NCBI RefSeq assembly: GCF_032854445.1
Contig: NC_088300.1
Span: 81,259,084-81,323,083, forward strand
DNA length: 64,000 nt
Source: Liolophura sinensis
Taxonomy: Eukaryota > Mollusca > Polyplacophora > Chitonida > Chitonidae
Direction of reading: 5' to 3'
In this document: piece by piece, positions 26,611 through 53,575 of the stretch
Numbering within the stretch: position 1 is the first letter of the stretch
Layout: each line of letters starts with the position of its first letter
Notes under the pieces: model-generated
Databases searched by the model: none
Seen by the model: only the letters and a program-made list of their open reading frames with translations
What the model was told of the DNA's origin: nothing
Made by a program: the position numbers and the translations under genes

Positions 26611-29600
26611 CTGAAATGCAGAGAGCATCTTGTCACAAAACTGACCAGGAACTAGTGATTAAATCACAGGTATGATACACTAACTGACAGGTATGATACA
26701 CTGACGGAGCACTATTGACTAAATCACTGCTATGATACACCGACATGTATGCCACACTAATTGACAGGGCACTACTGATTAAATCACAGGTATGATACAC
26801 TAACTGACAGGGCACTTGATTAAATCACAGGTATGACACAGACAGGTATGATACAATAACTGACAGGTCTCTAGTGATTAAATCACAGGTATGACATTAA
26901 CTGACACGGCACTACTGATTAAGTCACAGGTATGATACACTCACTGTCCGGGTACTATTGATCAAATCACAGGTATGATATACTGACAGGTATGACAGAA
27001 ACAGGGCACTATTGATTAAATCACAGGTATGATGCACTAACTTAAAAACATTATTTATTACATGACAGGTATGATACACTAACTGACAAGGCACTATCGA
27101 TTAAGTTAAAGGAATGATGCACTAGTGGATGGGGCAATATTGATTGCATCATGCACTAACTGACCAGGCACTATTTATTGTATCATGCACTAACTCACTT
27201 TATGCTGAAATGTAACTGCTACAAACACAATATACAAATGTCCTGCATTTATATGGCATAGAATATTTTCTCTCTGTTAGGTGTTAGCCGAGTTATTGCT
27301 TACCTGTGGCAGATATTAGTTGTGTTCCTACATGTACATGTACTCACCTATGGTAGGTGTTAGCTGTGTTCCTGTTCACCTGTGGCAGGTGTCAGTTGTG
27401 TTCCTGCTCACCTGTGGCATGTGTTAGCTGTGTTCCTGCTCACCTGTGGTAGGTGTTAGCTGTGTTCCTGCTTACCTGTGGCAGGTGTTAGTTGTGCTCC
27501 TACGTGTACATGTACTCACCTGTGGTAGGTGTTAGCTGTGTTATTGCTCTTCCGTGGTAGGGGTTAGCTGTGTTCCTGCTCAACCTGTGGTAGGTCTTAG
27601 CTGTGTTCCTGCTCACCTGTTGTAGGTGTTAGTTGTGTTCCTACATGTACATGTACTCACCTGTGGTAGGTGTTGACTGTGTTCCTGCTCACCTGTGGCA
27701 TGTGTTAGTTGTGTTCTACATGTACATGTACTCACCTGTGGTAGGTGTTAACTGTGTTGCTGCTCACCTGTGGTAGGTTATAGCTGTGTTGCTGCTCATC
27801 TGTTGTAGGTGTTAGCTGTGTTGCTGCTCACCTGTAGCAGGTGTAAGCTGTGTTAATACATGTCCTCACCTGTGGTAGGTGTTATCTGTGTTGCTGCTCC
27901 CCTGTGGTAGGTGTTAGGTGTGTTCCTGCCTACCTGTGACAGATGTTAGCTGTCTTACTACTCACCTGTGGCACAGCCTCCAATGATAGCTAGCAGCTCC
28001 TCTGAGGCCGCACACTTATCCCCTTCTATCCTGAACAACGGCTGATTGCATGTGTCAGTTGCTTGTTACCCCCTGGGCACAATGTGTTCTTGGGGCATGG
28101 TTGTGGGTCACAAGATGCACACTGTATGAAAACAAGCATATTACATGTATTAATAGTTTGTATCATCATCCATTAAGAGCGCGCACTTGCTCAGAAGGTG
28201 AAACGCTTCCTCGCTCTGGCAGTTTGTGCAACATAAGGGAAAACGTTTTATCAGATGAAATTTTTTTTATTTTATCAATGAAATATGCAGCATTCGTTAA
28301 ACATGTTAAAATGTCATGAGTATTGAAAAAGAGGAAATGTCTGGCTGCTGCCTGATCTAAATGTCAACATGATACTGACAGTAATGTGCTTGACAACAAA
28401 GTCACAAGGTCCCTGTCTGACTTACTGGACAGAAGTGGCCACCCGGACAGCCGATACAGTCCTTACAACAAAGTCCCTGTCTGATTTACTGACAGAAGTG
28501 GTCGCCCGGACAGCCGATACAGTCCTTACAACAAGGTCCCTGTCTGACTTACTAGACAGAAGTGGCCACCCGGACAGCCGATACAGTCCTTACAACAAGG
28601 TCCTGTCTGACTTACTAGACAGAAGTGGCCACCCCGACAGCCGATACAGTCCTTACAACAAGGTCCCTGTCTGACTTACTGGACAGAAGATGCCCTGTGG
28701 ACAGTCCTTACAACAAGGTCCCTGTCTGATTTACTGGACAGAAGTGGCCACACGGACAGTGCTTAAAACAAGGTCCCTGTCTGGCTAAATATTAGACAGA
28801 AGTGGCCACGTGGACAGCTGATACAGACCTTTACAAGGTCACTGTCTGACTTACTGGACAGAAGTGGCCAGGTGGACAGCTGATACAGTCTTTACAAGGT
28901 CACTGTCTGACTTACTGGACAGAAGTAGCCAGGTGGACAGCTGATACAGACTTTAACAAGGTCACTGTCTGACTTCCTGGACAGAAGTGGCCACGTGGTC
29001 AGCTGATACAGACTTTACAAGGTCACTGTCTGACTTATTGGACAGAAGTGGCCACGTGGACAGCTGATACAGGTCTTTACAAGGTCACTGTCTGACTTAC
29101 TGGACAGAAGTAGCCACGTGGACAGCTGATACAGACTTTACAAGGTCACTGTCTGACTTACTGGACAGAAGTGGCCACGTGGACAGCTGATACAGACTTT
29201 ACAAGGTCACTGTCTGACTTCCTGGACAGAAGTGGCCACGTGGACAGCTGATACAGACTTTACAAGGTCACTGTCTGACTTACTGGACAGAAGTGGCCAC
29301 GTGACAGCTGATACAGTCCTTATAGCAAGGTCCCCTGTGTAACTTCCTGGACAGAAGTGGCCACGTGGACAGCTGATACAGACTTAACAAGGTGACTGTC
29401 TGACTTACTGGACAGAAGTGGCCACGTGGACAGCTGATACAGACTTTACAAGGTCACTGCTCTGACTTACTGGACAGAAGTGGCCACGTGGACAGCCGAT
29501 ACAATCTTTACAAGGTCACTGTCTGACTTACTGGACAGAAGTGGCCACGTGGACAGCCGATACAGTCCTTATAGCAAGGTCCCTGTGTAACTTCCTGGAC

Positions 29601-32600
29601 AGAAGTGGCCACGTGGACAGCTGATACAGACTTTACAAGGTCACTGTCTAACTTCCTGGACAGAAGTGGCCACGTGGACAGCTAATACAGACTTTACAAG
29701 GTCACTGTGTAGCTTCCTGGACAGAAGTGGCCACGTGGACAGCTGATACAGACTTTACAAGGTCACTGTCTGACTTACTGGACAGAAGTGGCCACGTGGA
29801 CAGCTGATACAGACTTTACAAGGTCACTGTCTGACTTCCTGGACAGAAGTGGACAGCTGACACAGTCTTTACAAGGTCACTGTCTGACTTACTGGACAGA
29901 AGTGGCCACGTGACAGCTGATACAGACTTTACAAGGTCCCCGTGTAACTTCCTGGACAGAAGTGGCACGTGGACAGCTGATATAGACTTTACAAGGTCAC
30001 TGTCTGACTTCCTGGACAGAAGTGGCCACGTGGACAGCTGATACAGACTTTACAAGGTCACTGTCTGACTTACTGGACAGAAGTGGCCACGTGGACAGCT
30101 GATACAGTCCTTATAGCAAGGTCCCTGTGTAACTTCCTGGACAGAAGTGGCCACGTGGACAGCTGATACAGACTTAACAAGCTCACTGTCTGACTTACTG
30201 GACAGAAGTGGCCACGTGGACAGCTGATACAGACTTTACAAGGTTACTGTCTGACTTACTGGACAGAAGTGGCCACGTGGACAGCTGATACAGTTTTTAC
30301 AAGGTCACTGTCTGACTTACTGGACAGAAGTGGCCACGTGGACAGCAGATACAGTCCTTATAGCAAGGTCCCTGTGTAATTTCCTGGACAGAAGTGGCCA
30401 CGTGGACAGCTGATACAGACTTTACAAGGTCACTGCCTAACTTCCTGGACAGAAGTGGCCACGTGGACAGCTGATACAGACTTTACAAGGTCACTGTCTG
30501 ACTTACTGGACAGAAGTGGCCACATGGACAGCTGATACAGTCCTTACAACAAGGTCCCTGTCTGACTTACTGGACAGAAGTGGCCACATGGACAGCTGAT
30601 ACAGACTTTACAAGTCACTGTCTGACTTACTGGACAGAAGTGGCCACGTGGACAGCTGATATAGACTTTACAAGGTCACTGTCTGACTTACTGGACAGAA
30701 GTGGCCACATGGACAGCTGATACAGACTTTACAAGGTCACTGTCTGACTTACTGGACAGAAGTGGCCACGTGGACAGCTGATACATACTTTACAAGGTCA
30801 CTGTCTGACTTCCTGGACAGAAGTGGCCACGTGGACAGCTGATACAGACTTTACAAGGTCACTGTCTGACTTACTGGACAGATGTGGCCACGTGGACAGC
30901 TGATACAGTCCTTATAGCAAGGTCCCTGTGTAGCTTCCTGGACAGAAGTGGCCACGTGGACAGCTGATACAGATTTTACAAGGTCACTGTCTGACTCACT
31001 GGACAGAAGTGGCCACGTTGACAGCTGATATAGACTTTACAAGGTCACTGTCTGACTTACTGGACAGAAGTGGCCAGGTGGACAGCTGATACAGTCTTTA
31101 CAAGGTCACTGTCTGACTTACTGGACAGAAGTGGCCACGGGGACAGCTGATACAGACTTTACAAGGTCACTGTCTGACTTACTGGACAGAAGTGGCCACG
31201 TGGACAGCTGATACAGACTTTACAAGGTCACTGTCTGACTTACTGGACAGAAGTGGCCACGTGGACAGCTGATATAGACTTTACAAGGTCACTGTCTGAC
31301 TTCCTGGACAGAAGTGGCCACGTGGACAGCTGATACAGACTTTACAAGGTCACTGTCTGACTTCCTGGACAGAAGTGGCCACGTGGACAGCTGATACAGA
31401 CTTTACAAGGTCACTGTCTGACTTACTGGACAGAAGTGGCCACGTGGACAGGAGATACAGTCTTTACAAGGTCACTGTCTGACTTACTGGACAGAAGTAG
31501 CCAGCTGGACAGCTGATACAGTCTTTACAAGGTCACGGTCTGACTTATTGGACAGAAGTGGCCACGTGGACAGCTGATACAGACTTTACAAAGTCACTGT
31601 CTGACTTACTGGACAGAAGTGGCCACGTGGACAGCTGATACAGGCTTTACAAGGTCCCCGTGTAACTTCCTGGACAGAAGTGGCCACGTGGACAGCTGAT
31701 ACAGACTTTACAAGGTTACTGTCTGACTTCCTGGACAGAAGTGGCCACGTGGACAGCTGATACAGACTTTACAAGGTCACTGTCTGACTTACTGGACAGA
31801 AGTGGCCACGTGGACAGCAGATACAGTCTTTACAAGGTCACTGTCTGACTTACTGGACAGAAGTAGCCAGGTGGACAGAGGATACATTTCTTAGCGCCAA
31901 AGTCCGTCTGGTATGATCCGTCCGCACACTGCTCACACAGGTCACTACCTGGAATGGCTTTTGCTTTTCCTGTCAAACAATCATTTATTTATTTCATGTT
32001 TATTTGCATGTTGCTTAATGCTATACAGAAGGATTTTTCACATATGGGATGGAGGAAGTGTCCTCTGACCTTTGGCAAGTGACTGACAAACATGTGCAGA
32101 CATATTCAGCAGACAAGTGGTTTTCAATGATAGTTCAAAGGATAGTTTAGGCAAACACCCAAACAAGCATTGTTATTCACCCAGTGTCACCAAGGCCTTG
32201 CAGGCAGTGGAGTAGAAGAATTCAACAAGCTGTGCATGTACTTGAACTTGATACCTTTCTTCTAGTGGAATAAAGATTTCATGCTACATACACACTTCTA
32301 ATTAGACTGTACGTGTAAACATAGATTTACCTGCTTTTATTACCTTTTTTTATTGATTTGAAGCAATACCAAAATAAAAGCAAAATAGACAGGCATGAAA
32401 GGTAGTGACTAGCCTCAAACACATGGCCTTTACTCCATACCTAACAGTCAACTTACATACCCACTGACTCACATCCTCATTGTACACCTACATTCTTCAA
32501 TACCAGCCTTGCTCTCCCCTGTGTAATATTTCAGTCACAAAATACTGAGACACATGCAATGTATACGCTACCTGGTTCACACAAAGTACAGTTTTCCGCG

Positions 32601-35600
32601 CCTTCCTTCACAGCTTCCTCGCCTGCAGCACACACCTCACAGACTTCACAGGCCGGTTCACTGCAACATGATCAGGGGTAAGAATCAGCCATTGTACACA
32701 GACACCACAACATTGCTCACCTACATAACATGCATGTACACACCTCACAGACTTCACAGGCCAGTTCACTGCAACATGATCAGGGGTAAGAATCAGCCAT
32801 TGTACACAGACACCACAACATTGCTCACCTACATAACATGCATGTACACACCTCACAGACTTCACAGGCCAGTTCACTGCAACATGATCAGGGGTAAGAA
32901 TCAGCCATTGTACACAGACACCACAACATTGCTCACCTACATAACATGCATGTACACACCTCACAGACTTCACAGGCCGGTTCACTGCAACATGATCAGG
33001 GGTAAGAATCAGCCATTGTACACAGACACCACAACATTGCTCACCTACGTAACATGCATGTACACACCTCACAGACTTCACAGGCCAGTTCACTGCAACA
33101 TGATCAGGGGTAAGAATCAGCCATTGTACACAGACACCACAACATTGCTCACCTACGTAACATGCATGTACACACCTCACAGACTTCACAGGCCAGTTCA
33201 CTGCAACATGATCATGGGTAAGAATCAGCCATTGTACACAGACACCACAACATTGCTCACCTACATAACATGCATGTACACACCTCACAGACTTCACAGG
33301 CCGGTTCACTGCAACATGATCAGGGGTAAGAATCAGCCATTGTACACAACATTGCCATTGTACACAACATTGCTCACCTACATAACATGCATGTACACAC
33401 CTCACAGACCTCACAGGCCGGTTCACTGCAACATGATCAGGGGTAAGAATCAGCCATTGTACACAACATTGCCATTGTACACAACATTGCTCACCTACGT
33501 AACATGCATGTACACACCTCACAGACTTCACAGGCCGGTTCACTGCAGCATGATCAGGGGTAAGAATCAGCCATTGTACACAGACACCACAACATTGCTC
33601 ACCTACGTAACATGCATGTACACACCTCACAGACTTCACAGGCCGGTTCACTGCAACATGATCAGGGGTAAGAGTCAGCCATTGTACACAGACACCACAA
33701 CATTGCTCACCTACATAACATGCATGTACACACCTCACAGACTTCACAGGCCGGTTCACTGCAACATGATCAGGGGTAAGAATCAGCCATTGTACACAGA
33801 CACCACAACATTGCTCACCTACATAACATGCATGTACACACCTCACAGGCTTCACAGGCCGGTTCACTGCAGCATGATCAGGGGTAAGAATCAGCCATTG
33901 TACACAGACACCACAACATTGCTCACCTACATAACATGCATGTACACACCTCACAGACTTCACAGGCCGGTTCACTGCAGCATGATCAGGGGTAAGAATC
34001 AGCCATTGTACACAGACACCACAACATTGCTCACCTACATAACATGCATGTACACACCTCACAGGCTTCACAGGCCGGTTCACTGCAGCATGATCAGGGG
34101 TAAGAATCAGCCATTGTACACAGACACCACAACATTGCTCACCTACATAACATGCATGTACACACCTCACAGACTTCACAGGCCAGTTCACTGCAACATG
34201 ATCAGGGGTAAGAATCAGCCATTGTACACAGACACCACAACATTGCTCACCTACGTAACATGCATGTACACACCTCACAGACTTCACAGGCCAGTTCACT
34301 GCAACACGATCATGGGTAAGAGTCAGCCATTGTACACAACATTGCCATTGTACACAACATTGCTCACCTACATAACATGCATGTACACACCTTACAGACC
34401 TCACAGGCCAGTTCACTGCAACATGATCAGGGGTAAGAATCAGCCATTGTACACAGACACCACAACATTGCTCACCTACATAACATGCATGTACACACCT
34501 CACAGACTTCACAGGCCAGTTCACTGCAACATGATCAGGGGTAAGAGTCAGCCATTGTACACAACATTGCCATTGTACACAACATTGCTCACCTACATAA
34601 CATGCATGTACACACCTCACAGACCTCACAGGCCAGTTCACTGCAACATGATCAGGGGTAAGAATCAGCCATTGTACACAGACACCACAACATTGCTCAC
34701 CTACATAACATGCATGTACACACCTCACAGACTTCACAGGCCGGTTCACTGCAACATGATCAGGGGTAAGAGTCAGCCATTGTACACAGACACCACAACA
34801 TTGCTCACCTACGTAACATGCATGTACACACCTCACAGACTTCACAGGCCGGTTCACTGCAGCATGATCAGGGGTAAGAATCAGCCATTGTACACAGACA
34901 CAACAACATTGCTCACCTACATAACATGCATGTACACACCTCACAGACTTCACAGGCCGGTTCACTGCAACATGATCAGGGGTAAGAGTCAGCCATTGTA
35001 CACAACATTGCTCACCTACATAACATGCATGTACACACCTCACAGACCTCACAGGCCGGTTCACTGCAACATGATCAGGGGTAAGAATCAGCCATTGTAC
35101 ACAGACACCACAACATTGCTCACCTACATAACATGCATGTACACACCTCACAGACTTCACAGGCCGGTTCACTGCAACATGATCAGGGGTAAGAGTCAGC
35201 CATTGTACACAGACACCACAACATTGCTCACCTACATAACATGCATGTACACACCTCACAGACTTCACAGGCCGGTTCACTGCAGCATGATCAGGGGTAA
35301 GAATCAGCCATTGTACACAGACACCACAACATTGCTCACCTACATAACATGCATGTACACACCTCACAGGCTTCACAGGCCGGTTCACTGCAGCATGATC
35401 AGGGGTAAGAATCAGCCATTGTACACAGACACCACAACATTGCTCACCTACATAACATGCATGTACACACCTCACAGACTTCACAGGCCGGTTCACTGCA
35501 ACATGATCAGGGGTAAGAATCAGCCATTGTACACAGACACCACAACATTGCTCACCTACATAACATGCATGTACACACCTCACAGGCTTCACAGGCCGGT

Positions 35601-38600
35601 TCACTGCAGCATGATCAGGGGTAAGAATCAGCCATTGTACACAGACACCACAACATTGCTCACCTACATAACATGCATGTACACACCTCACAGACTTCAC
35701 AGGCCGGTTCACTGCAACATGATCAGGGGTAAGAATCTGCCATTGTACACAGACACCACAACATTGCTCACCTACATAACATGCATGTACACACCTCACA
35801 GACTTCACAGGCCAGTTCACTGCAACATGATCAGGGGTAAGAATCAGCCATTGTACACAGACACCACAACATTGCTCACCTACATAACATGCATGTACAC
35901 ACCTCACAGACTTCACAGGCCAGTTCACTGCAACATGATCAGGGGTAAGAATCAGCCATTGTACACAGACACCACAACATTGCTCACCTACATAACATGC
36001 ATGTACACACCTCACAGACTTCACAGGCCGGTTCACTGCAACATGATCAGGGGTAAGAATCAGCCATTGTACACAACATTGCTCACCTACATAACATGCA
36101 TGTACACACCTCACAGACCTCACAGGCCAGTTCACTGCAGCATGATCAGGGGTAAGAATCTGCCATTGTACGCAGACACCACAACATTGCTCACCTACAT
36201 AACATGCATGTACACACCTCACAGACTTCACAGGCCAGTTCACTGCAACATGATCATGGGTAAGAATCAGCCATTGTACACAGACACCACAACATTGCTC
36301 ACCTACATAACATGCATGTACACACCTCACAGACTTCACAGGCCAGTTCACTGCAACATGATCATGGGTAAGAATCAGCCATTGTACACAGACACCACAA
36401 CATTGCTCACCTACATAACATGCATGTGCACACCTCACAGACTTCACAGGCCGGTTCACTGCAACATTGCACACACCTCAAAGATAACTCTTGCTCAACT
36501 ACAGAACATTTACACACCTCAGAAATAAACCTTACTCACCTACATAATAAGTACACACCTCAGAGATAACCCTTCTCACACAGAGAACATTTGATCACCC
36601 ACAGAACACGTCCACAGCACACAGACAACACTTGGTCACCTATAGAACATACCCACAGCACACAGACAACACTTGACCACCCACAAAGCATGCCCACAGC
36701 ACATGGGCAATACCTGATCACCCACACAGCACATAGACAGCACAGAGGCAACACTTGATCCCCCACAGTGCACGCCCACAGCACACGGATAACACTTGAT
36801 CACCCAAAGAACAAGCCCACAGCACACAGACAACCCTTGATCACTCACAGAACATGCCCGCAGCACACAGACAACCCTTGACCACCCACAGAACATGCCT
36901 GCAGCACACAGACAACCCTTGACCACCCACAGAACATGCCTGCAGCACACAGACAACCCTTGACCACCCACAGAACATGCCTGCAGCACACAGACAACCC
37001 TTGACCACCCACAGAACATGCCTGCAGCACACAGACAACCATTGATCACCCACTGAGCATGCCTACAGCACACAGACAACACTTGATCACCCACAGAACA
37101 TGCCCACAGCACACGGACAACACTAGATCATCTATAGAACATGCCCACAGCACACGGACAACACTAGATCACCTACAGAACATGCCCGCAGCACACGGAC
37201 AACACTTGATCACCTACAGAACATGCCCACAGCACATGGACAACACTTGATCACCTACAGAACATGCCCGCAGCACATGGACAACACTTGATCACCTACA
37301 ACACATGCCGACACCACACAGACAACCCTCGCTTACCCACAGAACATGCCACACCACTCATACTTGCTCACCCACAAAACATGCCCACAGTACACAGATT
37401 ACAGCTTGTCCCTCCACTATGGTTGATGTAGGTGCCGGGGGCACAGTCAGAGCAATTTGTGGCATTTCTGTGCTCACTAAAGTGACCTGTAAAACAGAAG
37501 TACAAGAATACAGATTCCATTATACTTTCTTTTTTCCTACAAAATGTCAATTTGTCAAAAGTCAGAGACAGTCGTAGCACTTGACCTTGTCATTTCAAAG
37601 TACTGAGGTTCTTGCAGGTTTTCATCCCACTTGTCAAATGAATTCATCGACACAGACATCAGTACAATCACACGAATAAATAAACAAGACATCATAAGTG
37701 CACAAAAACTGAGTTTAAAATGTATGTGTAGATGTCATGGTGGTAAGGTCAGCCACTTTTTATATATTAAAAACAATCTGAAAAAAACAGGGTAAAGCAA
37801 CTGTAAAGCACTTGAAAGAGAATGTGTAGTCCTACAAGGCATAGACTATGTCACATGTAAGTTTGATGGATGTAGGAAGACAGGTTGTCTGTAAATAAGC
37901 CACTGCACAAGTAACTGAGGAACTTTTTGCATATTGACATCTGAATTTCCTGTACATGTGAGACTTCCTGAACAGACCTACTAACGGTGTCATCAAATTA
38001 CATGTATTGCCATCAAAAGCCCAAGGGGAATGGAAATCAAGCTGTGTGGGAGCGAGGAACTTGAGGTTACTCCAACTGAAGAGGACTATAAGATTTATTT
38101 ATTTATTTATTTATTTATTTGACTGGTGTTCTACAGAAGCCCTCAGGACTATAAGAAGCCCAGCTTTTACCTTTTGTGTACTTTATAGAAACCTGTAATT
38201 TAAACACTGCTCCAATCATCATCATGAAAAACCTACCAGGAGAGCACGGCTGACACATTTCCTTTGACATGCTGTGTTTGAAATATCCCTTTTCACAGCC
38301 AGTACAATTTGTGGCTCCAAGAGCTCTGAAAATGAAAGATGATGGTAGCGATAAGAAAAGAAATGCTAAAGAGACAATTCTTATGAGCTTTTTAAACTTA
38401 AATGAATGATAATAAATGGTTTATTTTAAGTTCCAAGTGAAGCAAACATTTTACTGTCTGACAGAGTTTATCCCGAGAGGAACTGCAGGTACACACGGCA
38501 CAAATATATCTGTATACACATGAGTTGTTTATACACCAACCTGGTTTCAAATCCTGCTGGGCAGGGGAGACAATTGGTTTGACCTTCTTTGTCTTGATAC

Positions 38601-41600
38601 TCGCCTGCAGAAGAGAATGTATAAAACAAACAAAATCAAACAGACTTTGATGTTCACTGTAGCCATCTAAACAAATCATAATGAAGTCATTTTCTGATTC
38701 AGAAAGGCATTTAATTTCCTACAACTGAACATTGCCATACAAGAGAAGTAGTTTATAATACATTTATAGAAAAAACCACCATCTAAAATTACAGTCTATA
38801 TGGAACTACAGAACATGGAATTATTTTTCAGTAGTTTTCAGTACAAAATTCTCACCAAGTTGACATGCTTTACAGAACTTGTTGCCTTTGGAGTCAGAGT
38901 AGTTCCCCTTGGGACAGCTGGAACAATTCACACACCCAGAAATACTGAAAAAGGAAAACAGAGAATTGGTTTTCAGAGAAAATATTTGATGAATTATTAC
39001 ACTTTCTGGACACACAGCATTCTATTGTACAAAGAATCAAAACTGTAATCTTTAATAATCCACCCGTCACCAAGATGATCAAATAGAACACAGCCTGAAC
39101 AAGGCTTAAAATATACTCAGACTACAACTCTGGTGACACTCAATCCAGCTTTCTACAACTGACACACACCTGTGCTGCAGTTTTTGTACTCTCTAAGAAC
39201 TTGATTTTGTTAAATACATCAGATGAGTCAATCATTTCTGGAAGTCTGGGGAAGTATGTATAAGTCAGCCTAATAGCTACAATTAACAGTTAAATCTGGG
39301 TCAGTTACATATACATGAACAGTCACAGACAAACATTATACTGTAAACGCCTTTTTATTCGCGTGGTACTAACATCTGTGGCAAACACATTTCCGCAAAC
39401 ACCACCCATGTAAGTAATTTATTAATGTAGCATGCATTACAGCTATAATATCGCTAACAAGCACTACAGTTCTAATACTTTTTCAAACATGTTAATTAGA
39501 AATACCTAATTAGAATGTACTCCGGCTTTCACAAATCCAGCTTAACCAATCGTCATTTAATCTTGCTCTCTTTTATGGAGGCTTAGCTCCATCTAAGTAT
39601 TGCCCCATTGCAACATTGTTGTTGTTGTTGATTCATTGCAGCGGTTAGAGACATACAAATTGATGATTTGTACTGGGCGTGTGTACATGATACGATATAC
39701 ATACGATGAGAAAGGCTGTTTTTTTATTAACTGTACTTGCCTTCCAGTCAGATCACCTTTCCAACATGCCCGATACATTGCTCGGGGGTTTCCACACTTC
39801 AAACTTCCTTTTCATAATGACGATTTCTGAGAAGTTTAGTCAAATCTGTCACAGTTCACTCAAACATTCACTCAGACTGCTGATGCATTTATATCACATT
39901 TAATCCTTCGTCGTCGTTTGCTCACACAGCAGGTAACGGCATCGTCTTATAAAGATTAACAGTCTTCCTTTGTCTGATCAAGTTACTGTATTGTATAGAA
40001 TGTTTTGCCACATCTTGTAGGTACAAACAAGAAACAAGTTTAAATGATAACATTGCTACTTGAATGCTTGAGTTGTTTTATTATTTGACGTTTCTGTATT
40101 GAAGTTTGATTTTTCGTTTATCAAGCGTCCAAAAATTCTGTTAACATCCGCGAAGGTTGACTCCCGCGAATATGTCTTCTTACCTAATCCGCAGAAGTTT
40201 ATCCCGGGAATAACAAGACATTTACATTAGACGTGAACAGTCACAGACAAACATCATGTACATATGAACAGTCACAGACAAACATGATATACATGTGAAC
40301 AGTCGTAGACAAACATCATGTACCTGTGAACAGTCACAGACAAACATCATGTACCTGTGAACAGTCACAGACAAACATCATGTACATGTAAACAGTCACA
40401 GACAAACATGATATACATGTGAACAGTCACAGACAAACACGATATACATGTGAACAGTCATAGACAAACATCATGTACCTGTGAACAGTCACAGACAAAC
40501 ATCATGTACATGTAAACAGTCACAGACAAACATCATGTACATGTAAACAGTCACAGACAAACATATTATACATGTGAACAGTCACAGACAAACATGATAT
40601 ACATGTGAACAGTCATAGACAAACATCATGTACCTGTGAACAGTCACAGACAAACATGATATACATGTGAACAGTCACAGACAAACATCATGTACATGTG
40701 AAGTCACAGACAAACATCATGTACATGTGAACAGTCACAGACAAACATCATGTACATGTGAACACTCAGACAAACACCATGTACATGTGAACAGTCACAA
40801 ACAAACACAACATACATGTGAACAGTCACAGACAAATGTCATGTACATGTGAACAGTCACAGACAAACATCATGTATATGTGAACAGTCACAGACAAACA
40901 TCACATACAAGTGAACAGTCACAGACAAACACCATGTACATGAGAACAGTCAGACAAACATCATACACATGTGAACAGTCACAGACATACAGCATGTACA
41001 TGTGAACAGTCACAGACAAATGTCATGTACCTGTGAACAGTCACAGACAAACATCATGTATATGTGAACAGTCACATACAAACATCACATACAAGTGAAC
41101 AGTCACAGACAAACATCATGTACATGAGAACAGTCAGACAAACATCATGTACATGTAAACAGTCAGACAAACATCATGTACATGTAAACAGTCAGACAAA
41201 CATCATATACAAGTGAACAGTCACAGACATACAGCATGTACATGTGAACAATCACAGACAAACATCATGTACATATGAACAGTCACAAACATACATCATA
41301 TACATGTGAACAGTCACAGACAAACATCATACACATGTGAACAGTCACAGACAAACATCATGTATATGTGAACAGTCACAGACAAACATCATACACATGT
41401 GAACAGTCAAAGACAAACATCATGTACCTGTGAACAGTCACAGACAAACACCATACACATGTGAACAGTCACAGACAAACATCATACACATGTGAACAGT
41501 CAAAGACAAACATCATGTACATGTGAACAGTCACAGACAAACATGTACATGTGAACAGTCATAGACAAACATGATATACATGTGAACAGTCACAGACAAA

Positions 41601-44600
41601 CATCATGTACATGTGAACAGTCACAGACAAACATGTACATGTGAACAGTCACAGACAAACATCATACACATGTGAACAGTCACAAACAAACATCATGTAC
41701 ATGTGAACAGTCACAGACAAACATCATGTACATGTACATATATATATATATATATACAAATACACATGTAGAAAGAAGGCTGCATACATGTGAACATGTG
41801 GGCCACCTTACCCAGGGCAAGAGTGCTGAACTGACTAGCAAACTGCAGGTTTATTTATTTATCTGACTGGTGTTTTAGACCATACTCAAAAACAGAGTAT
41901 TTAGCTTATGCAACAGTGGCTAGCATTATGGTGGGAGAAAACCTGACAAAGGCTAGGGGAAAACCCTCAATCATCGGCAGCTAAGTGGCAAATCTTCCGA
42001 CATACAACATAGGAGGAAGCCAGCACGAATTGGACTTGAACTAACAGCGACTACATTGGTGAGATGCTCTGGAGTCCTTGAGCTACGCTGGCTGACCACA
42101 TGGCCACGGAGAGCTTGCAGTGTTTTACTTACTTGCAGTATGTACCCTCTTCACACAAATGACATGTCTGCTGGCCTGTATCATTCTGATAATGCCCATA
42201 GTCACACCTATAGCACTCAAGGAGGCCAGTCTTGTTAGCATAGAAACCTGCAGCAGAAGAGGTCATACATGGCTATGGGTGCATTTAAGATAGGTATACC
42301 TGTGTACCAGTCACACAGGTGTACCTGTCAAACATGTGTACCTGTCAAACATGTGTACCTGTCAGAGATATGTGTACTAGTGTACCTGTCCAATCTGTGT
42401 ACCTGTTAGATCTGTGTACTTGTGTATCCAGCCAAATATGTCTACATGTACCTGTCAGAGTGATGTATGTGTACCTGTGTACCTATCAAATCTCTGTACT
42501 TGTGTATGTCAGATCTGTGAACCTGCCAGATATGTGTACCTGTCAGATCTGTGTACTTGGGTATCGGACAAATCTATGTAATATGTACTTGAGTATTTGT
42601 CAGATCTATGTATTTGTGTATCCGTCAGATCCGTGTACCTGTCAGATATGTGTACTTGCCAGATTTGTGTACCGACTAATTTCCCAAGGAAAACATGTCC
42701 AGAACATTAACAATTGTGGAGTACAGAACTTACCAACTTCCCACGGAAAACATGTCCAGAACATTAACAATTGTAGAGTATAGAACTTACCAACTTCCCA
42801 AGGAAAACATGTCCAGAACATTAACAACAGAGAAGTACAAATCTTACCGGCTTCACAAGGAAAACAAGTACTGCACCCTTCAAGACTGAAACAAAATTGT
42901 TTGATAAAGTATTCATTAAGCTCAAAATTCATCTAAATAAACAACAGAAATGACCAGTACATGTACATGTAATTACTATTACAATGTAATTAGTATTGCA
43001 TGTGTTCCCACTACCACCAAGCAAGATGCCAGTTCAATAATATTATTAAATGGGTTTAATATGTTACCTTGACTCGCTTGCACAATGGGATTGTGACTAC
43101 TTATCTAAATTTTAAGCCAACAACTGATTTACAATAGACTGTGAAAATAAGTCTAGACTTTTGAGGTGGTAGTAACTTTTTGTAGTTACGATCACAATCG
43201 GAGGCCAAACTTGACTTACATAACGGTGGTTTGTATAAATGTACCGGTCAACAACTTTTCCTTGCTTTCATTATTAAAATAATTCTGCATCATAATGGTT
43301 TAGCACATAAAAACAACAAAATGCTAGAAAAGTCTTGCAACAACTTTTTGAGACAAATAAACTGAAATAAATTTTAAGATAAGGCTACGACCAATATCTT
43401 ACTGATTTACAATAGCTTTATAGCCTTTGTCAACTAAAATTGTATGAGGTTAACAAGGGATTGTTTATGGTGAAGACAGATGAGTTTTGTGTCATTTGAA
43501 AGCATACAAAAATAAAAGCCTTGTGACAAAGGAGAGACATGTCAGATCAAATCCTTTTACAGACTACGTACACAACACAAAACTGGTAGATTGGACATAA
43601 TAGATGCAGCTGCAGGAGATAACCTGACACCCAAACATATGGGCTGTATGAAGTAAGCACATAGTGGTCGTACTTGCAGAAGGTGCCTTTAGCACAGCTG
43701 ACACAGGTGGTTTGCCTGGTCTGGTTTTGAAAGCTTCCAGGTTTACAACTGAGACAGTCTGGTTGTCCCTGCTGAGGCTGGTACTTCCCCTGGCAGCATT
43801 CATCACAGGTCAGGGAGCGGGGCTTTCGGGCATGGGTGCCTGCAAAGACAGGGACAATAAGGAAATCATGACTGAGGTCTAACTATGCCACATTGACTGG
43901 GAGAAGGCCGTACATGGACACTGTTATTCTTGAAGTCAGTGCTTTAACTTCACATAATATGACATATTTTAAGAGACTGGTACATTTTATGCAAACTTAC
44001 CAACTTCCCAAGGAAAACATGTCATGTACATTAACAATTGGGGAGTATAGAACCTACCAACTTCCCAAGGAAAACATGTCCTCAACATTAACAATTGTGC
44101 TGGGTGTGTTTGTATCTTACCTGCATCACACTTTTCACAGGATGAAGCTCCTGTCTGATTGCTGAACCAGCCAGGTGAACAGTCATAACATGTTGTCTCA
44201 CCAGCATTTCTGAAAACAGGATGTAATAAACACTAACACAGTGTTATACAAAACAGGATGTAATAAACACTAACACAGTGTTATAAAAATCAGGATGTAA
44301 TAAACACTAACACAGTGTTATAAAAAAAAAAAAAAAACAGGATGTAATAAACACTAACACAGTGTTATAAAAAAATAGGATGTAATAAACACTAACACAG
44401 TGTTATAAAAAAACAGGATGTAATGAACACTAACAGTGTTATAATGACTGTGACAGGGATTTATAGTGAACACGTACATGTACCCTCTCAGCCAATAGTC
44501 ACATGTTACAAGCACAATTCAACATTATCACTTTATTTGAAAGTGAATTGCTATTAGTGTGATGTAAAAAGCCAAGCATAACTATGTAAAATGAAAGTGA

Positions 44601-47406
44601 AAGTGAACAATTCTCTACATGTAAAGCAGTTGTTATAAAGCTATAAACTATACACACTCTGACATTTGTGTTCAGGTCCCTTCTCAGATGGATACGCTGA
44701 TTTGACTAATTCGTTCATTATTTTGTTGATTGGATATAAATTTTCAACATGTTCAAGAGTATTTTTGTTCATCTACTCAATCCCTGAAGTTTTCATCAGT
44801 ACTTACTGTGGCGGTCATCTTTATGGATTTAGGAAATAAAGGTGCCTTGATTCAATTTTTTATCTTTGGCATGTTACTGACAATCTCTTCCATGTGACAT
44901 ACACACTTCTTCTAGTACCAATGAAAGGACAATGGTCTTCAAACACACATGACAGGCCACTAGGCCCTATGGACAGCAAGGAAGTCTAAACACCATATCC
45001 TATGTAATAGTCCAATCAGACACAACACTTGAGAACATGTGCCCACTAAGCCCTACACATCTGGAAAAAGCAAGCTCTGACAAGCTGTGGGGATATGTTG
45101 CTGTTTCACCAGCATATAAAGATTTACCCTGAATAAGTGCCCTCTTCACAATGGGAACAACTCTAGACTTTGGTTGTGCGCTGGTAGTACCCACATTTAC
45201 TACAGAGGAAGACTTACTCAGAACAGGTGCCCTCTTCACAAGGGGAACAACCCCAAGCTGGGCTCATATTTACTGTAGAGGAAGACTTAATCAGAATAAG
45301 TACCCTCTTCACAAGGGGAACAACCCCAAGCTGGGCTCATATTTACTGTAGAGGAAGACTTACTCAGAATAAGTACCCTCTTCACAAGGGGTACAACTCG
45401 AGGCTTCGGTTGTGTTCTGGTAGTATCCAGGTTCACATTTACTACAGCAGGAGGCCTCACAGCAAAAACCTGGCTGTCGATTGCAGCATCCACAACATGT
45501 CACGGCTTCAAGAGAAACAAGCCACGTGGTATCAAACTTCAACTGTAAAGGTAACTGGTAACAAAAATCCAGAGTGCAAGCTTTGGTGGATTGAAGCTTG
45601 CTACATGATACAATGACCACACAGGTATGGTCGGAAATTCAGCAGGCCTGAGAAATCAAAACCCAGAAATCTCACCTGCTTAAATTATATATGATTCATA
45701 TGATTGACTGGTGTTTTTTTCACGCCGTACTCAAGAATATTTCACTTATACAACGACGGCCAGCATTATGGTGGGAGGAAACCCCTAAATTTAGACATCT
45801 GGTCTTTCCTTGGTATTAAATTTTAATGGTAATACAAAACTTCGGTAAAACCTGAAAAACAACAGATTCACTTTAACACTTTTTTCATAAACTATTATTG
45901 TTCAACATCATGCTTGATCAGATTAATTACAGTTATTAAAAAGTTACATGTAAATTTTTTTTTATAAATCTATTTTAGCTCCCTTAATATCAGTGAGCTT
46001 GTCTAGACTACAGGTTTGTGTATTTTTAATCCTGGTCAATAATACTTTCTGTTTTATGGATTTGTATTTGTCATGATGTTATCGTGTAATAGGACCATTT
46101 GGCCTATTGATTTTTTTCAAATTAACATCCATATTTATTACCTTATCGACAACATTCCATGTACACAGACATGTACACATATGTTATTTGTAATTATCAC
46201 TGAGAGTTTCAGAAAGCTTACTGTTATTTGCATACTGTCCTGCCTGGCATGGGAAACAGTTTTGTATGACCTCAGAACAGTTCAGCACAGGGGTGAACTC
46301 ATCCAGATATACTTCAGACCACCCTTGGCTAATAAGAACTACCAGCAAAACTGGAAAGGAAACATTCATACAAAATATCATTACAAACACTACGAAGATG
46401 TGTGGCATAAAGCCTGCAAAACAAATTCAGTCCACAGACAGTCCCCTTGTATGCAGTTCTTATGAACTACATTCATTCATGCATTCAGATCATTAGTCAG
46501 GACAACTATGGGACTATGTTAAGTATATATGTGTTTATATGTAGCGGATGGGATTAATATATAAACTGTTCCATTAGTCCTAGGTACCAGTAAGGCTTAT
46601 TTTTGGATGGCCGTACTTTAAAGAAAAGACAAAAAACCTGATTTATAAATGTATCAGTAGAGTATAAGGTTATAAAGCATACCATATTATTTTTGTTATT
46701 GTTGATTTGTGCAGTTACCAAGAACACGAGGAAACAATTCCCATTCAAAACATGGTAGATGTTGGTTCACCTTGTTTGATTCAAAAGTTTGAATGGCTGG
46801 ATTACTGTTAAAAAACGGTTTACCGATGCTTGCTTTGACATATCAGATGACATATAAGGAATATGTGCATACCAAAATTAGAGTCTGTTTCATTAGGTTC
46901 ACTTAGCTAATTAAGCCCTTAACTAGCATGACAATTAATGTATATTGTGTATGTGTGTATGTGTGCTTGGGGTTTTACGTCGTTCCGGGAGTATCATTAA
47001 TGTACAACAAATGACAAGCTTCCCTTTACAAAATTACAGGTTCAATTGTGCCTTCGAACACAAAATCTCCCGCAGTTACATGCAATCACAGTGAAGCAAG
47101 AAATTGTGCTTATGTCAAACATCGAAAATACTCTTTTTTCATGTATATCCGTGAACGCCGTTCTGTCCATCTTCAGCTTTCCTGACTATCGTATGTAAGT
47201 GCTCAACACAGTAGTAGCTCTAGGACTAGGCTGTTGGTATCCAAATGAATCAGACGTTGTACAAATGTACATGCTAGCCTACAAACTAAACTGAAGTTCA
47301 CCATCGCCATTCGTCTGTAAGGACAGCCTGCCCAAGGTTTGATTATAAACCCACCTGGCACGTTCCACAAGACAGTGGTTGACTGTCTACGCAGAGTTTC
47401 TGTCAT
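26477..47406 (-). CDS. Cysteine-rich single-pass membrane protein with ephrin-receptor-like/TNFR-like repeats (15 exons)
   Basis: Unnamed receptor-like gene. Exons of 52, 192, 142, 89, 166, 38, 115, 89, 64, 89, 115, 89, 95, 156 and 134 nt join with matching phases into about 541 residues (522 if translation starts at the second ATG), provided one missing base is assumed in exon 14. Residues 18-50 hold a hydrophobic signal peptide or anchor (core SFPVLLVVLISQ). Residues 60-470 are a run of CxxC-x-x-G-x-Y/F modules (CEKCDAG, CKPGSFQN, CEEGTY, CPKGNYSD, CAPGTY, CPPGYFCP) like GCC2/GCC3 ephrin-receptor-like domains, with many N-glycosylation sequons. A TM helix (ELLAIIGGCATVVILFTLCV) sits near 486-509, followed by YRKRRRR and a roughly 35-residue tail. 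Recurrent 89- and 115-nt exons point to internal module duplication. Predicted cell-surface protein; ligand and function unknown. Exons 1-8 are duplicated to the right. Confidence 0.82.
26640..27190. repeat. Degenerate minisatellite in receptor intron 14
   Basis: About 12 irregular units of 40-55 bp keyed by 'gattaaatcacaggtatgat' and 'acactaactgacagg'. Not clearly exon-derived. Confidence 0.85.
27290..27965 (-). repeat. Minisatellite resembling exon 14 end plus donor
   Basis: About 15 units of roughly 38-45 bp. On the minus strand each has CCTGCCACAG followed by gtgagcagg, matching the exon 14 end TGTGCCACAG and donor gtgagt. Confidence 0.85.
27966..28121 (-). CDS. Receptor exon 14 (membrane-proximal and TM start; apparent frameshift)
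   Basis: Entered in phase 0 after acceptor tttcatacag it reads CASCDPQPCPKNTLCPGG, then meets TAG at 28026-28028. The frame that matches the 3' exon (CNQPLFRIEGDKCAASEELL then AIIGGCAT) is one base off and blocked upstream by TAA at 28066-28068. One missing base between 28,029 and 28,065 reconciles both. Donor ACAG/gtgagt, phase 1 into exon 15. Confidence 0.65.
28395..31853 (-). repeat. 61-bp minisatellite of exon 13 end plus donor (about 57 units)
   Basis: On the minus strand each unit reads CTGTCCACGTGGCCACTTCT then GTCCA and the donor gtaagtcagac, matching exon 13 (CTCTGTCCACCTGGCTACTT). It occupies nearly all of intron 13. Reading through any donor gives a stop (TAA) about eight codons on. 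Confidence 0.95.
31854..31948 (-). CDS. Receptor exon 13
   Basis: 95 nt, phase 1 to 0, acceptor gccattccag, donor CCA/gtaagt. Peptide SDLCEQCADGSYQTDFGAKK and CILCPPGYFCP. The next 3.4 kb repeats its 3' end and donor. Confidence 0.87.
31949..32571 (-). other. Receptor intron 12, no array
   Basis: About 620 bp of ordinary intron between two exons flanked by arrays on their other sides. Nothing recognised. Confidence 0.6.
32572..32660 (-). CDS. Receptor exon 12
   Basis: 89 nt, phase 2 to 1, acceptor catgttgcag, donor CCAG/gtagcg. Peptide EPACEVCEVCAAGEEAVKEG then CTLCEPG. The first 30 nt with the acceptor recur in every 108-bp unit upstream. Confidence 0.88.
32661..36475 (-). repeat. 108-bp array of potential cassette exons (about 35 units)
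   Basis: On the minus strand each unit has acceptor catgttgcag, a 48-nt open segment (exon 12 start TGAACCGGCCTGTGAAGTCT fused to a copy of the exon 11 end CATGCATGTTATGTAG), the donor gtgagcaa and a 60-bp spacer holding 'ctgattcttacccctgatca'. A few units lack or duplicate a short block in the spacer. Because the period is a multiple of three, both strands stay open for over 1,280 codons; those long frames are not genes. Confidence 0.95.
36570..37371 (-). repeat. 41-bp minisatellite of exon 11 end plus donor-like site
   Basis: About 19 units. On the minus strand each has GGCATGTTCTGTGGGTG, matching the exon 11 end and donor (GGCATGTTTTGTGGGTG). It begins at the exon 11 donor and runs to the 108-bp array. 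Confidence 0.92.
37372..37486 (-). CDS. Receptor exon 11
   Basis: 115 nt, phase 1 to 2, acceptor tgttttacag, donor TGTGG/gtgagc. Peptide HFSEHRNATNCSDCAPGTY to CNLCTVGMFCG. Its 3' end and donor seed the 41-bp array and contribute to the 108-bp array. Confidence 0.88.
38094..38125. repeat. (TTTA)n tract with SINE family B tail remnant
   Basis: 'atttatttatttatttattt' followed by 'gactggtgtt', the tail start of family B. Confidence 0.6.
38237..38325 (-). CDS. Receptor exon 10
   Basis: 89 nt, phase 2 to 1, acceptor cattttcag, donor CCTG/gtaggt. Peptide ALGATNCTGCEKGYFKHS to MCQPCSPG. Confidence 0.87.
38541..38604 (-). CDS. Receptor exon 9
   Basis: 64 nt, phase 1 to 2, acceptor ttctgcag, donor CCAG/gttggt. 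Peptide EYQDKEGQTNCLPCPAGFET. Present once only, outside the duplication. Confidence 0.85.
38856..38944 (-). CDS. Receptor exon 8
   Basis: 89 nt, phase 2 to 1, acceptor tcctttttcag, donor CTTG/gtgaga. Peptide ISGCVNCSSC, PKGNYSDSKG and CKACQLG. It is the last exon inside the duplicated segment. Confidence 0.87.
40225..41740. repeat. 30-bp minisatellite in receptor intron 7 (copy 1)
   Basis: About 50 units keyed by 'gaacagtcacagacaaacat' and 'catgtacatgt', ending in an (AT)n tract. Not exon-derived. Confidence 0.95.
41852..42112 (-). mobile_element. SINE family B (diverged), copy 1
   Basis: 'tatctgactggtgttttaga' to a tRNA-like head ending 'ctgaccacatggccacggag'. It ends about 20 bp from receptor exon 7. 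Duplicate at 53,576-53,837. Confidence 0.8.
42133..42247 (-). CDS. Receptor exon 7
   Basis: 115 nt, phase 1 to 2, acceptor ttctgctgcag, donor GCAA/gtaagt. Peptide FYANKTGLLE, CYRCDYGHYQ and CHLCEEGTYC. A SINE lies immediately 3' of it. Confidence 0.85.
42300..42665. repeat. Degenerate short-unit repeat in receptor intron 6
   Basis: Irregular 18-25-bp motifs such as 'gtgtacctgtcagatctgtg'. Copy 2 lies at 54,024-54,388. Confidence 0.75.
42675..42847 (-). repeat. 60-bp repeat of micro-exon 6 end plus donor
   Basis: Two to three units with minus-strand TGTTTTCCTTGGGAAGTTG then gtaagttc, matching exon 6 (TGTTTTCCTTGTGAAGCCG then gtaagat). Copy 2 at about 54,398-54,570. Confidence 0.88.
42848..42885 (-). 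CDS. Receptor exon 6 (38-nt micro-exon)
   Basis: 38 nt, phase 2 to 1, acceptor tttgtttcag, donor GCCG/gtaaga. It encodes LEGCSTCFPCEAG, which completes the CxxC pattern between exons 5 and 7. Its 3' end and donor are repeated downstream. Confidence 0.75.
43674..43839 (-). CDS. Receptor exon 5
   Basis: 166 nt, phase 1 to 2, acceptor gtctttgcag, donor GCAA/gtacga. Contains CDECCQGKYQ, CLSCKPGSFQ and CVSCAKGTFC. In the duplicate this exon is one base shorter and frameshifted. Confidence 0.85.
43996..44092 (-). repeat. Displaced copies of the exon 6-derived repeat in intron 4
   Basis: Two further units, 'accaacttcccaaggaaaac' then 'atgtc', between exons 4 and 5, over 1 kb upstream of exon 6. 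Copy 2 at about 55,718-55,814. Confidence 0.85.
44121..44209 (-). CDS. Receptor exon 4
   Basis: 89 nt, phase 2 to 1, acceptor cctgttttcag, donor GCAG/gtaaga. Peptide NAGETTCYDC, SPGWFSNQTG, then CEKCDAG. Confidence 0.85.
44213..44455 (-). repeat. About 40-bp minisatellite abutting the exon 4 acceptor
   Basis: Six units of 'ggatgtaataaacactaaca' plus 'cagtgttata'. On the minus strand the unit nearest the exon ends tacatcctgttttcag, the exon 4 acceptor. Copy 2 at about 55,935-56,177. Confidence 0.92.
45121..45363 (-). repeat. Partial repeats of exon 3 end plus donor
   Basis: Three units after the real exon end, spaced 73, 73 and 90 bp, each with CCCTTGTGAAGAGGG or a close variant. Donor-like sites are gattaa (destroyed), gagtaagt (intact) and gggtaaat. 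Copy 2 at 56,843-57,085. Confidence 0.9.
45364..45505 (-). CDS. Receptor exon 3 (Cys-dense)
   Basis: 142 nt, phase 1 to 2, acceptor tttctcttgaag, donor CTGA/gtaagt. It encodes VTCCGCCNRQPGFCCEASCC and CEPGYYQNTT, ending CEEGTYSE. Three further partial copies of its 3' end with donor-like sites follow, so the exact donor is uncertain. Confidence 0.75.
45690..45785 (-). mobile_element. Fragment of SINE family B, copy 1
   Basis: 'gattgactggtgtttttttc' to 'gccagcattatggtgggagg'. Copy 2 at 57,412-57,507. Confidence 0.75.
46222..46413 (-). CDS. Receptor exon 2 (signal peptide)
   Basis: 192 nt, phase 1 to 1, acceptor tgttttgcag, donor AACA/gtaagc. It contains the ATG at 46408, the hydrophobic stretch and the first Cys motif CFPCQAGQYANN. 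Confidence 0.75.
47355..47406 (-). CDS. Receptor exon 1 (first ATG, tentative)
   Basis: ATG at 47406 in good context (aaacATGA) opens 17 codons, MTETLRRQSTTVLWNVP, donor CCAG/gtgggt, phase 1. Joining the acceptor of exon 2 stays open and in frame with the signal peptide. It could instead be 5' UTR if the ATG at 46408 is used. Confidence 0.5.
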
Positions 47407-47594
47407 GTTTTTGACATTTTCAACAAAATAGAAACTTATCAAAGCTTAATGTCAACACAAAACACCCAACAAGACTTAGTACGGAAACTTTTGTCATACG
47501 CCATTTGCTTGTCATGTGACCACCAAATGCATTCATGGGGAGATAACTGTAGTGACCAACTGAAACTCGCCTAGCGTGCTCTGACACACGTATA

Positions 47595-48246
47595 AAGCTG
47601 AGATTCCATATACGCGGTATGCGGTTTGCGGTATACTCCACGCGGTACGCGGATACGGCATGCGGTATGCGCTTTCTCTGATTCCATTTATGCGGTAACC
47701 TATGCGTTTTCTTTCATTCATGGTACGTTTTTATCAGAGCAAACATGTCGCATTCCTCCATTTCACGACGTGTGGCTTTAGAGCAAGATTCAGACCTTGC
47801 CATAATAGCAATGTCATATAAGTTGTTGCAACTAAAGAAGCGTAAAAAGAGAAAACACCGATGGTGGGTCCACAGTATTTTGCGGCAAAGAGCTCAGCAG
47901 GGAGCTTTACATAACTTGGTCTCGGAATTGCAGCTGGATGGAGAAAAATTCCAACAGTACTTTCGTCTAACCAGAGAACAATTTAAACAAGTTCCGACCA
48001 CGTGTCGGGGAAACACCCCACCAGTGACGTCATTTCTTGGGATACTCTGTCCGGTTTTGAAAACGCATACCGCACCGATCGCTACATGGTGCGATTGATT
48101 TTGCCGTATACGTTTCCGCTTGAAAAAACGGATCCGCGACCGTACCTATGGAATCATTGCAACTTATTTTAACTATTTCGATTTTTTTGCGGCGTACCGC
48201 ATACCGCGTACCGTATACCGCTACCGCATGTAAGGAATCTCAGCTT
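47595..48246 (+). mobile_element. PIF/Harbinger-like DNA transposon remnant, copy 1
   Basis: Perfect 13-bp terminal inverted repeats (aagctgagattcc and its complement) bounded by TA, with subterminal gcggta-type repeats at both ends. Inside, 47745-48098 (+) encodes 117 residues starting MSHSSISRRV with a KKRKKRKHRWWVHSIL then YFRLTREQF block, like the N-terminal part of Harbinger/HARBI1-type transposases; no DDE region follows. About 650 bp, so an internally deleted element. The family call rests on that short motif. Confidence 0.65.
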
Positions 48247-48579
48247 TAATCACATGTAGGTAACACCATATATGATTTCAACTGTGCACGTTTAGATGCC
48301 TGTATATACCGTGTCTATTCACTGTATGGTACAGAGAAGTATGAGTGGGATTTATTTTATTTTGTAAATCCACGTAGGACATTCTATTAAAGAGAAATGC
48401 TAATCTTGCGTAGGCTTTAAGTAATAACAAACAAAAGTCTAGGGACAAATCAACATGCGAGACTTGTAACCACTGTATGCCCACGGGAGAGACATGTTTT
48501 GGGTCTAAACAAGATTATGGTTACTTTCCCAATAAGGGTTTCCACACTGTCATGATGTCTCACACGCCTGTAATTGTCA

Positions 48580-48821
48580 CTTGACCGAGGTGGTTAGCGT
48601 GCCAAAATAATCCAGGAGCCTCTCGCACATGCGGTTGCTATGAGTTCAAGTCCAGCCCATATGCTGGCTTCCTCTGCCTCCATCCCCCGCCGACCCCCCA
48701 GCCTGACGTGAGAAGATCTGCCAGCAGTATGTGGATGGTCGTAGGTTTCCTTCGGGTTCTGCCTGGCTTCCTCCCAGGCAGAATATTAGTGAGCATGGCG
48801 TAAGCACTAACCAAATCCCGG

Positions 48822-48857
<36 letters not shown>
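48580..48857 (+). mobile_element. SINE related to family B, plus orientation, copy 1
   Basis: tRNA-like head (gaggtggttagcgtgcc, then gagttcaagtccagccc) and a tail ending in (aaat)n. Copy 2 at 60,302-60,579. Confidence 0.8.
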
Positions 48858-48858
<1 letters not shown>

Positions 48859-49284
48859 GTGACTAGCTACCGCAACGCAGACTATATGTAAGTACGTATA
48901 ATGGTTTTGTGCATCTGCCTTTTTTTCATGTTTTGTTAGGTGAACATTTTAGAGTTACAGGTATGGTTTCAATTTCTGGTCGTGATATTCACGGAGTAAT
49001 GAATAAAAAGATCCATACCTGTGATTTCAGTAAGGCCAGATTTAACGCCGGTTATATCACTTAAAGCTTAATCAGAGGCCGGTCGTGAGCATCATTTTGT
49101 TGAGAAGGGAGGTGGGAATTTGTCCTTACTATCACATATGTAGCTGGATGTACATGGTGTCTTGTGTATTCTAGGCCCACGTTGGCTGATCTATACGAAA
49201 AGTCAGTCTCTTTGACCAATGAAGGCGAGTGTTCCATTCAAGCTGCTAGCGGTTGAGGCTTCAAGTTGTCGTAAAAGCCTGGTT

Positions 49285-53465: not shown

Positions 53466-53575
53466 ATTATATATATATATACAAATACACATGTAGAAAG
53501 AAGGCTGCATACATGTGAACATGTGGGCCACCTTACCCAGGGCAAGAGTGCTGAACTGACTAGCAAACTGCAGGT

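Follow-up and report, generated by a model that had tools for sequence, protein, structure and literature searches.

The question raised by this locus is whether a long row of exon-like repeats inside one intron of a chiton gene is put to use by that gene or is a copy of a splice junction that has multiplied. The locus lies in a 64,000-nt window of the Liolophura sinensis genome (assembly GCF_032854445.1, contig NC_088300.1, positions 81,259,084 to 81,323,083; coordinates below count from the first base of this window), where a gene encoding Ephrin_rec_like domains on the minus strand carries an array of 108-bp units between two of its exons. The copies vary in the manner of unconstrained repeats, so the array is most likely a self-copied splice-junction minisatellite (a 'mirage'), the copies of which would mostly be skipped in splicing. 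The exon numbers 11 and 12 used here, and the word 'receptor', are labels from the initial annotation of this DNA; our modelling was confined to 45473-28070. The parts on which the argument turns are as follows (a slash marks an exon-intron border).

37372 to 37486, minus strand: exon 11, 115 nt, an Ephrin_rec_like stretch with donor TGG/GTGAGCAAG and exit phase 2; frame continuous with its neighbours, PF07699 matched on the joined exons.
36463 to 37398, minus strand: 41-bp minisatellite that covers the donor of exon 11 along with the 3' end of the exon, a putative donor mirage (36577-37398, 20.2 copies; 36463-36592, 3.2 copies).
32661 to 36458, minus strand: 35 complete 108-bp units, each a 48-nt exon-like part plus a mini-intron of 51, 60 or 69 nt with donor, branch-like motif (CTGAT, CTTAC) and acceptor.
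32572 to 32660, minus strand: exon 12, 89 nt, exit phase 1; it shares its acceptor with the last array copy.

Tandem Repeats Finder (TRF) places the 108-bp array at 32630-36467, with 35.4 copies and 95% matches. With units delimited at the acceptor by the string TGCAGTGAAC, 35 complete units (22 distinct sequences) run from 36458 down to 32661, a length of 3,798 nt, and are followed by the authentic exon 12. The spacing between matches to TGCAGTGAAC is always one unit (99, 108 or 117 nt) and thus no unit was skipped in the count. The range proposed initially, 32572-37371, was too wide: the units occupy only the part from 32661 to 36458, and the remainder includes exon 12 and the separate 41-bp array. 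The exon-like part measures 48 nt in every unit (consensus T GAA CCG GCC TGT GAA GTC TGT GAG GTG TGT ACA TGC ATG TTA TGT AG) and occurs in nine versions, the mini-intron in 12. A 60-bp spacer, as first described, is present in 29 units; the mini-intron is 51 nt long in two others and 69 nt in four. An intact AG, an intact GT and an open frame in register with the gene are found in 35/35 units, in agreement with the earlier estimate of about 35 tandem units with a symmetric 48-nt part. The donor reads GTGAGC throughout; the acceptor is TTGCAG, the six bases that precede exon 12, in 26/35 units and CTGCAG in 9/35.

Exon 11 exits and exon 12 enters in phase 2. Insertion by script of 0, 1 or 3 units between them keeps a single open frame, each unit adding EPACEVCEVCTCMLCS, and the claim that units can be added without a frameshift is borne out. 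An unspliced unit reaches a TGA at its donor in the frame of the gene (AGG TGA), and splicing is thus required for the units to be open. In a frame that differs from that of the gene, the array also forms a stop-free stretch of 1,289 codons (window 32611-36477, minus strand), because the unit lengths of 99, 108 and 117 are multiples of 9; this stretch is probably a by-product.

The unit is assembled from the two neighbouring exon ends. Its nucleotides 1-31 are identical to the first 31 nt of exon 12, and its tail has a counterpart in exon 11: GCATGTTATGTAG/GTGAGCAA in the unit corresponds to GCATGTTTTGTGG/GTGAGCAA where exon 11 ends, and none of 1000 shuffles scores as well. The fusion in register of these two exon parts was correctly recognized at the outset. 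The edge of the 108-bp array falls 30 nt inside exon 12. The 41-mer likewise aligns to the end of exon 11 and the adjoining intron (0/1000 shuffles as good), and many 41-bp copies have weaker donors, for example GTGATC and GTGGTC.

Variation among the 35 units is sparse. Six of the 48 exon-part positions are variable, all by transition: a proline/leucine exchange in 14/35 units, a synonymous GAA/GAG in five, valine/alanine in four, glutamate/lysine in one, a synonymous TGT/TGC in one and cysteine to arginine, with loss of the cysteine, in six. Counted by site, two of the six are synonymous and four are not, which contradicts the description of the variants as mostly synonymous. The ratio of non-synonymous to synonymous changes, 4:2, equals the 32:16 found among all 48 possible transitions. 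The comparison of coding constraint among units, set beforehand as one that could refute a coding role, detected none at the six variant sites. Exon and intron parts are similarly diverse: the pairwise value for the exon part, 0.028, compares with 0.018 for the 60-nt introns (29 units) and 0.030 for the last 36 intron nucleotides (35 units). A stop codon cannot be reached by any transition and arises from only 10/144 single substitutions; with stops so rarely reachable, the frame should stay open even in the absence of selection. The copies drift, and coding constraint on them was not detected with the power of six variant sites, which is low and compatible with weak selection. The 16 residues of each unit hold five cysteines, an odd number, and the unit would appear to fuse two part repeats.

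The surrounding gene contains further arrays at its exon boundaries. We modelled 11 exons on the minus strand between 45473 and 28070, with uncertainty in the acceptor of exon 45364-45473 and in the last exon's donor. Of these 11, seven (38944 to 28070) form, when joined, a single open frame of 204 codons that matches Pfam Ephrin_rec_like (PF07699) in six stretches (E 2.2e-24), with successive exit phases of 1, 2, 1, 2, 1 and 0. Exon boundaries are crossed by five arrays, of which the 108-bp array lies at the acceptor of exon 12 and the 41-, 61-, 57- and 73-bp arrays lie at donors. The features outside the intron are listed here.

31854 to 31969, minus strand: exon 13, 116 nt, donor CCA/GTAAGT.
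28404 to 31886, minus strand: 61-bp array that covers the donor of exon 13 along with the 3' end of the exon; its 61-bp row, 28795-31886, holds 50.5 copies.
42681 to 42866, minus strand: 57-bp array, 3.3 copies, across the donor of the 38-nt exon 42848-42885.
45195 to 45397, minus strand: 73-bp array, 2.8 copies, across the donor of exon 45364-45473 (acceptor uncertain).
44213 to 44444, minus strand: 37-bp array, intronic only; a gap of 4 nt separates it from the acceptor of the exon at 44121-44209.
38237 to 38944, minus strand: exons 38856-38944, 38541-38604 and 38237-38325, with no array edge within 40 nt.

The 61-bp array clearly demonstrates that such arrays persist without coding. A GT stands at the donor position in 34 of its 57 segments (CA/GT in 32), a TGA directly follows the first ACAG, the would-be acceptor, in 37, an open symmetric exon part is found in ten, and the latter coincides with CA/GT in three. 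These counts are approximate, as the array was cut at TCTGTC, one of the 57 segments lies inside exon 13 and copies lacking TCTGTC are merged into longer segments. Only 13 nt separate the donor from the next AG, which is too short for an intron.

In an edge test against 22 exon boundaries, six of ten arrays had an edge no more than 40 nt from a boundary, and five of those six span it. Among 5000 circular shifts the mean was 1.7 and the fraction at least as high was 0.005, a descriptive value, given that the arrays were merged by hand from TRF rows after their contact with exons had been noticed. The test left out an exon in the open reading frame 43550-43882 (donor uncertain) and the second copy of an 11.7-kb direct duplication (window 38708-50423 and 50432-62144; 99.9% identity, 0 mismatches, 8 gap openings). 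This duplication contains several exons of the Ephrin_rec_like gene and affects the exon numbering of the initial annotation; given a reported heterozygosity of 1.24% (PMC11068029), it is either very recent or an assembly duplication. Its two copies carry 31-bp arrays of the same size (49.1 copies; window 40233-41735 and 51957-53459), of which that at 40233-41735 has no edge near any modelled exon boundary. Farther down the minus strand lies an NF-YA exon (CBFB_NFYA, E 9.9e-14), and on that side there are a 101-bp array (10899-12092) and an 89-bp array (13477-15312) with units that contain CAG/GT-like motifs.

Tandem duplication within a gene reportedly creates splice-site pairs in the potato RdRp gene. 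Intron gain through tandem genomic duplication has been described there (PMC4974935); that gene gains a new intron, whereas in the chiton copies of an existing junction accumulate inside an intron. Much closer are the mirages of amphioxus, known in Adh3, troponin C and the globins BflGb6 and BflGb9, with units of 10-160 bp (PMC3087553, PMC3902484). There too, tandem copies of an intron-exon boundary lie beside the true boundary, AG or GT is present in many copies, and 5' and 3' boundaries can both be affected, as in the chiton gene. In amphioxus, regular splicing is reportedly unaffected by mirages that contain cryptic splice signals (PMC3087553, PMC3902484), and these minisatellites have been proposed as a source of new introns (PMC3087553). 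They differ in their cephalochordate host and in their few copies where numbers are given (six and three in the BflGb6 haplotypes; PMC3087553), whereas the chiton array is in a mollusc, has 35 copies and unites an exon end, a mini-intron and the start of the next exon in a symmetric in-frame cassette.

Among known systems, lancelet PGBD5 comes nearest to having a decoy exon within a mirage. It has 60-bp and, by coincidence, 108-bp tandem repeats overlapping splice sites; an exon predicted in the 108-bp repeats, potentially adding 57 residues, was excluded by the authors for lack of transcript support (PMC3902484). Those repeats number 2 or 7 and 3 or 6 imperfect copies depending on the assembly, and the predicted exon, compared here by its description, covers nearly two whole repeats, as opposed to one 48-nt cassette per unit in the chiton. 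KIV-2 resembles the chiton array in having protein-coding tandem units, at 1-40 copies per allele, but its units are 5.6 kb long and translated (PMC11462820), whereas those of the chiton are 108 bp and hold fused exon fragments. A search of open-licence papers found no junction-spanning minisatellite outside amphioxus and no mollusc case, and a term search of the main text of the chiton comparative-genome paper (PMC12005716) found no mention of tandem repeats or minisatellites. Mirage minisatellites are a known kind; the chiton case is new in host phylum, in copy number and in its one symmetric in-frame cassette per unit, and apparently also in its second-order construction. It shares with the known kind a tandem array of minisatellite length, a unit that spans the boundary and copies exonic sequence, a position adjoining the authentic boundary, and AG and GT in the copies. 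The host is a chiton and not a cephalochordate, and we regard host range as no part of the mechanism.

The simplest history of the array looks to be one of two steps, a 41-bp donor mirage followed by a second-order 108-bp unit, since the donor half of the unit aligns better to the 41-bp array (score 39) than to the end of exon 11 (35) and the 41-bp array is itself a copy of the exon 11 donor region. First, a tandem duplication of the exon 11 donor together with the 3' end of the exon would have given the 41-bp array; array and exon end are homologous and the order is what the scores suggest. A segment made up of a donor copy, a 60-nt intron stub (branch point plus true acceptor) and the initial 31 nt of exon 12 would then itself have been duplicated head to tail, probably with the join in the TGTGT common to both exon ends, and the resulting unit, of which this is the observed composition, may have multiplied through slippage or unequal exchange until there were 35 copies. 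The TGTGT includes, in both exons, an in-frame cysteine codon (TGT) of the same repeat family, and for this reason each copy reads as a symmetric 48-nt exon. Such symmetry needs no selection, as a join made at random yields a multiple of three one time in three. Thereafter the copies would have drifted. By the amphioxus precedent, splicing most likely uses the outer pair, so that exon 11 is followed directly by exon 12 in the mRNA and the copies are skipped, and because the units are in frame, occasional inclusions of a further 48 nt would probably be tolerated.

Several observations weigh against this account. The first 14 intron bases of the units are invariant (diversity 0), and the donor, acceptor and frame are kept in all 35 units but not in the 61-bp array, which can be read as purifying selection; by position counting, with 13/108 positions variable, the probability of invariance at the 13 splice-core positions is 0.17, and the 108-bp array is the more homogeneous of the two (95% matches versus 91%). 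Changes in length, in 9-nt steps, are confined to the mini-intron, which fits selection, although they may represent only one or two events. Exon 11 aligns to the unit nearly as well as the 41-bp array does, and an independent origin of the 41-bp and 108-bp arrays is possible. Unequal exchange would be expected to leave repeated multi-unit blocks or similar neighbours; repeated three-unit blocks number 0 (permutation mean 0.02), and neighbouring units are only slightly more alike than units overall (2.15 differences at lag 1, 2.42 overall). The suggestion of an exon-intron unit amplified by unequal exchange accordingly holds for the amplified unit, which derives from two neighbouring exon ends in a gene with further boundary arrays, and finds no support in block structure for the exchange itself.

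Among other explanations, the one that fares best, possible but considerably less probable than not, is that decoy and true sites are equally strong and some transcripts noisily include one or a few units, tolerated without benefit, the in-frame unit having allowed the array to keep working splice sites. It overlaps the last step of the history above. The predicted U1 pairing of the unit donor (-9.7 kcal/mol) is about as strong as that of the exon 11 donor (-9.3 kcal/mol), the symmetry is in frame, and among the five boundary-spanning arrays only the 108-bp array has a donor and an acceptor 51-69 nt apart within one unit. It is nevertheless a single array, and its frame would be preserved by chance in one case out of three.

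A bolder reading, which we consider unlikely, is a hypervariable bank of 48-nt splice cassettes, all of equal strength, from which each pre-mRNA would draw anywhere from 0 to 35 exons by chance. Were this so, individuals and even single transcripts would differ in the length of the cysteine-rich stretch, with allele length setting the range; the bank would have arisen with no new parts, through the expansion of a minisatellite over a splice junction where the phases match, and would represent a route from junk repeat to protein-length diversity.

Improbable too is a true repertoire, in which 0 to 35 optional cassette exons lengthen the cysteine-rich stretch in 16-residue steps and their variability is used. 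The complete sites and open phase-2 frame of all 35 units, the donor strength, the TTGCAG shared with exon 12 by 26 of them and the exon predicted in the PGBD5 repeats (PMC3902484) speak for it, and in-frame symmetric units with complete splice sites are what a functional cassette array would have. Coding constraint, which such an array should also have, was not detected, with the low power of six sites. The substitutions match the neutral ratio, a cysteine is lost in 6/35 units, and the 16 residues hold an odd number of cysteines and seem to fuse two part repeats. In amphioxus the mirages are reportedly skipped, the predicted exon in PGBD5 was set aside by the authors (PMC3087553, PMC3902484), and the chiton gene has other junction arrays unable to encode exons, such as the 61-bp array with its 13-nt gap. 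The large optional-exon repertoire first envisaged is thus upheld in its intact sites and frame, and its use is unsupported by the sequence.

Inflation or collapse of the array by the assembler is highly improbable: HiFi depth is only 14x (PMC11068029) and the 11.7-kb duplication without mismatches elsewhere in the window is suspicious, but the 35 units comprise 22 distinct sequences, the 3.8-kb array is shorter than the mean HiFi read of 8,347 bp (PMC11068029), and no second haplotype or copy of the locus was found in the assembly.

The genome comprises 609,464,459 bases in 632 contigs; the assembly was first published as Liolophura japonica (PMC11068029) and the name was later corrected to Liolophura sinensis (PMC12441733). 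Its mitochondrial COX1 gives a sensible protein under code 5 (AGA as Ser, AAA as Lys, ATA as Met, TGA as Trp), evidence against an echinoderm code, and the mitochondrial gene order is similar to that of chitons. Amphioxus, the source that the mirage precedent would suggest, was rejected in favour of a chiton on the mitochondrial code and gene order and on assembly statistics; a search for the GFP family was uninformative on this point, with no hit in this genome or in 14 controls. No close paralogue of the gene without arrays was found, protein search hits outside the window being only 27-45% identical. We sampled 78 best-scoring loci (30 of 74 Ephrin_rec_like matches, 30 of 138 kinase and 18 of 148 fn3), with the array scan limited to 40 nt around the domain match, so that farther exon ends were missed; many of the Ephrin_rec_like loci are paralogues from one cluster on contig C1. 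A clear boundary-spanning array was present in one of the 78, L023, another Ephrin_rec_like gene (C1:12378471), and in none of the other 77. Its 50-bp unit (39 nt of exon end plus 11 nt of intron; 30.8 copies in the fetched stretch) spans the donor of the exon, and the flanking locus L065 carries further 50-bp copies (L023 1-1532; L065 3950-4995). The motif CTGGTTC occurs in the L023 exon where the copied segment begins and again in the intron past the far end of the array, and is likely to represent microhomology. Two candidates were rejected as boundary cases, L018, where the array ends about 12 nt short of the exon, and L054, a 1.9-copy repeat inside the domain match; in L069 a 2.5-copy 15-bp repeat lies 30 nt past the domain match, in an ambiguous position relative to the exon edge. 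Junction-spanning arrays are not common in this sample. In the same assembly, contig C99 has seven COX1 matches at intervals of about 15.5 kb; the mitochondrial genome is repeated there head to tail, probably as a read or assembly concatemer.

The 108-bp array constitutes a natural splicing test, with 35 donor-acceptor pairs in one intron that are seemingly as strong as the true ones, and its in-frame symmetry would make splicing mistakes both survivable and visible. That a chiton has junction minisatellites, five of them in this gene and another in a second gene, suggests a wider mutational process.

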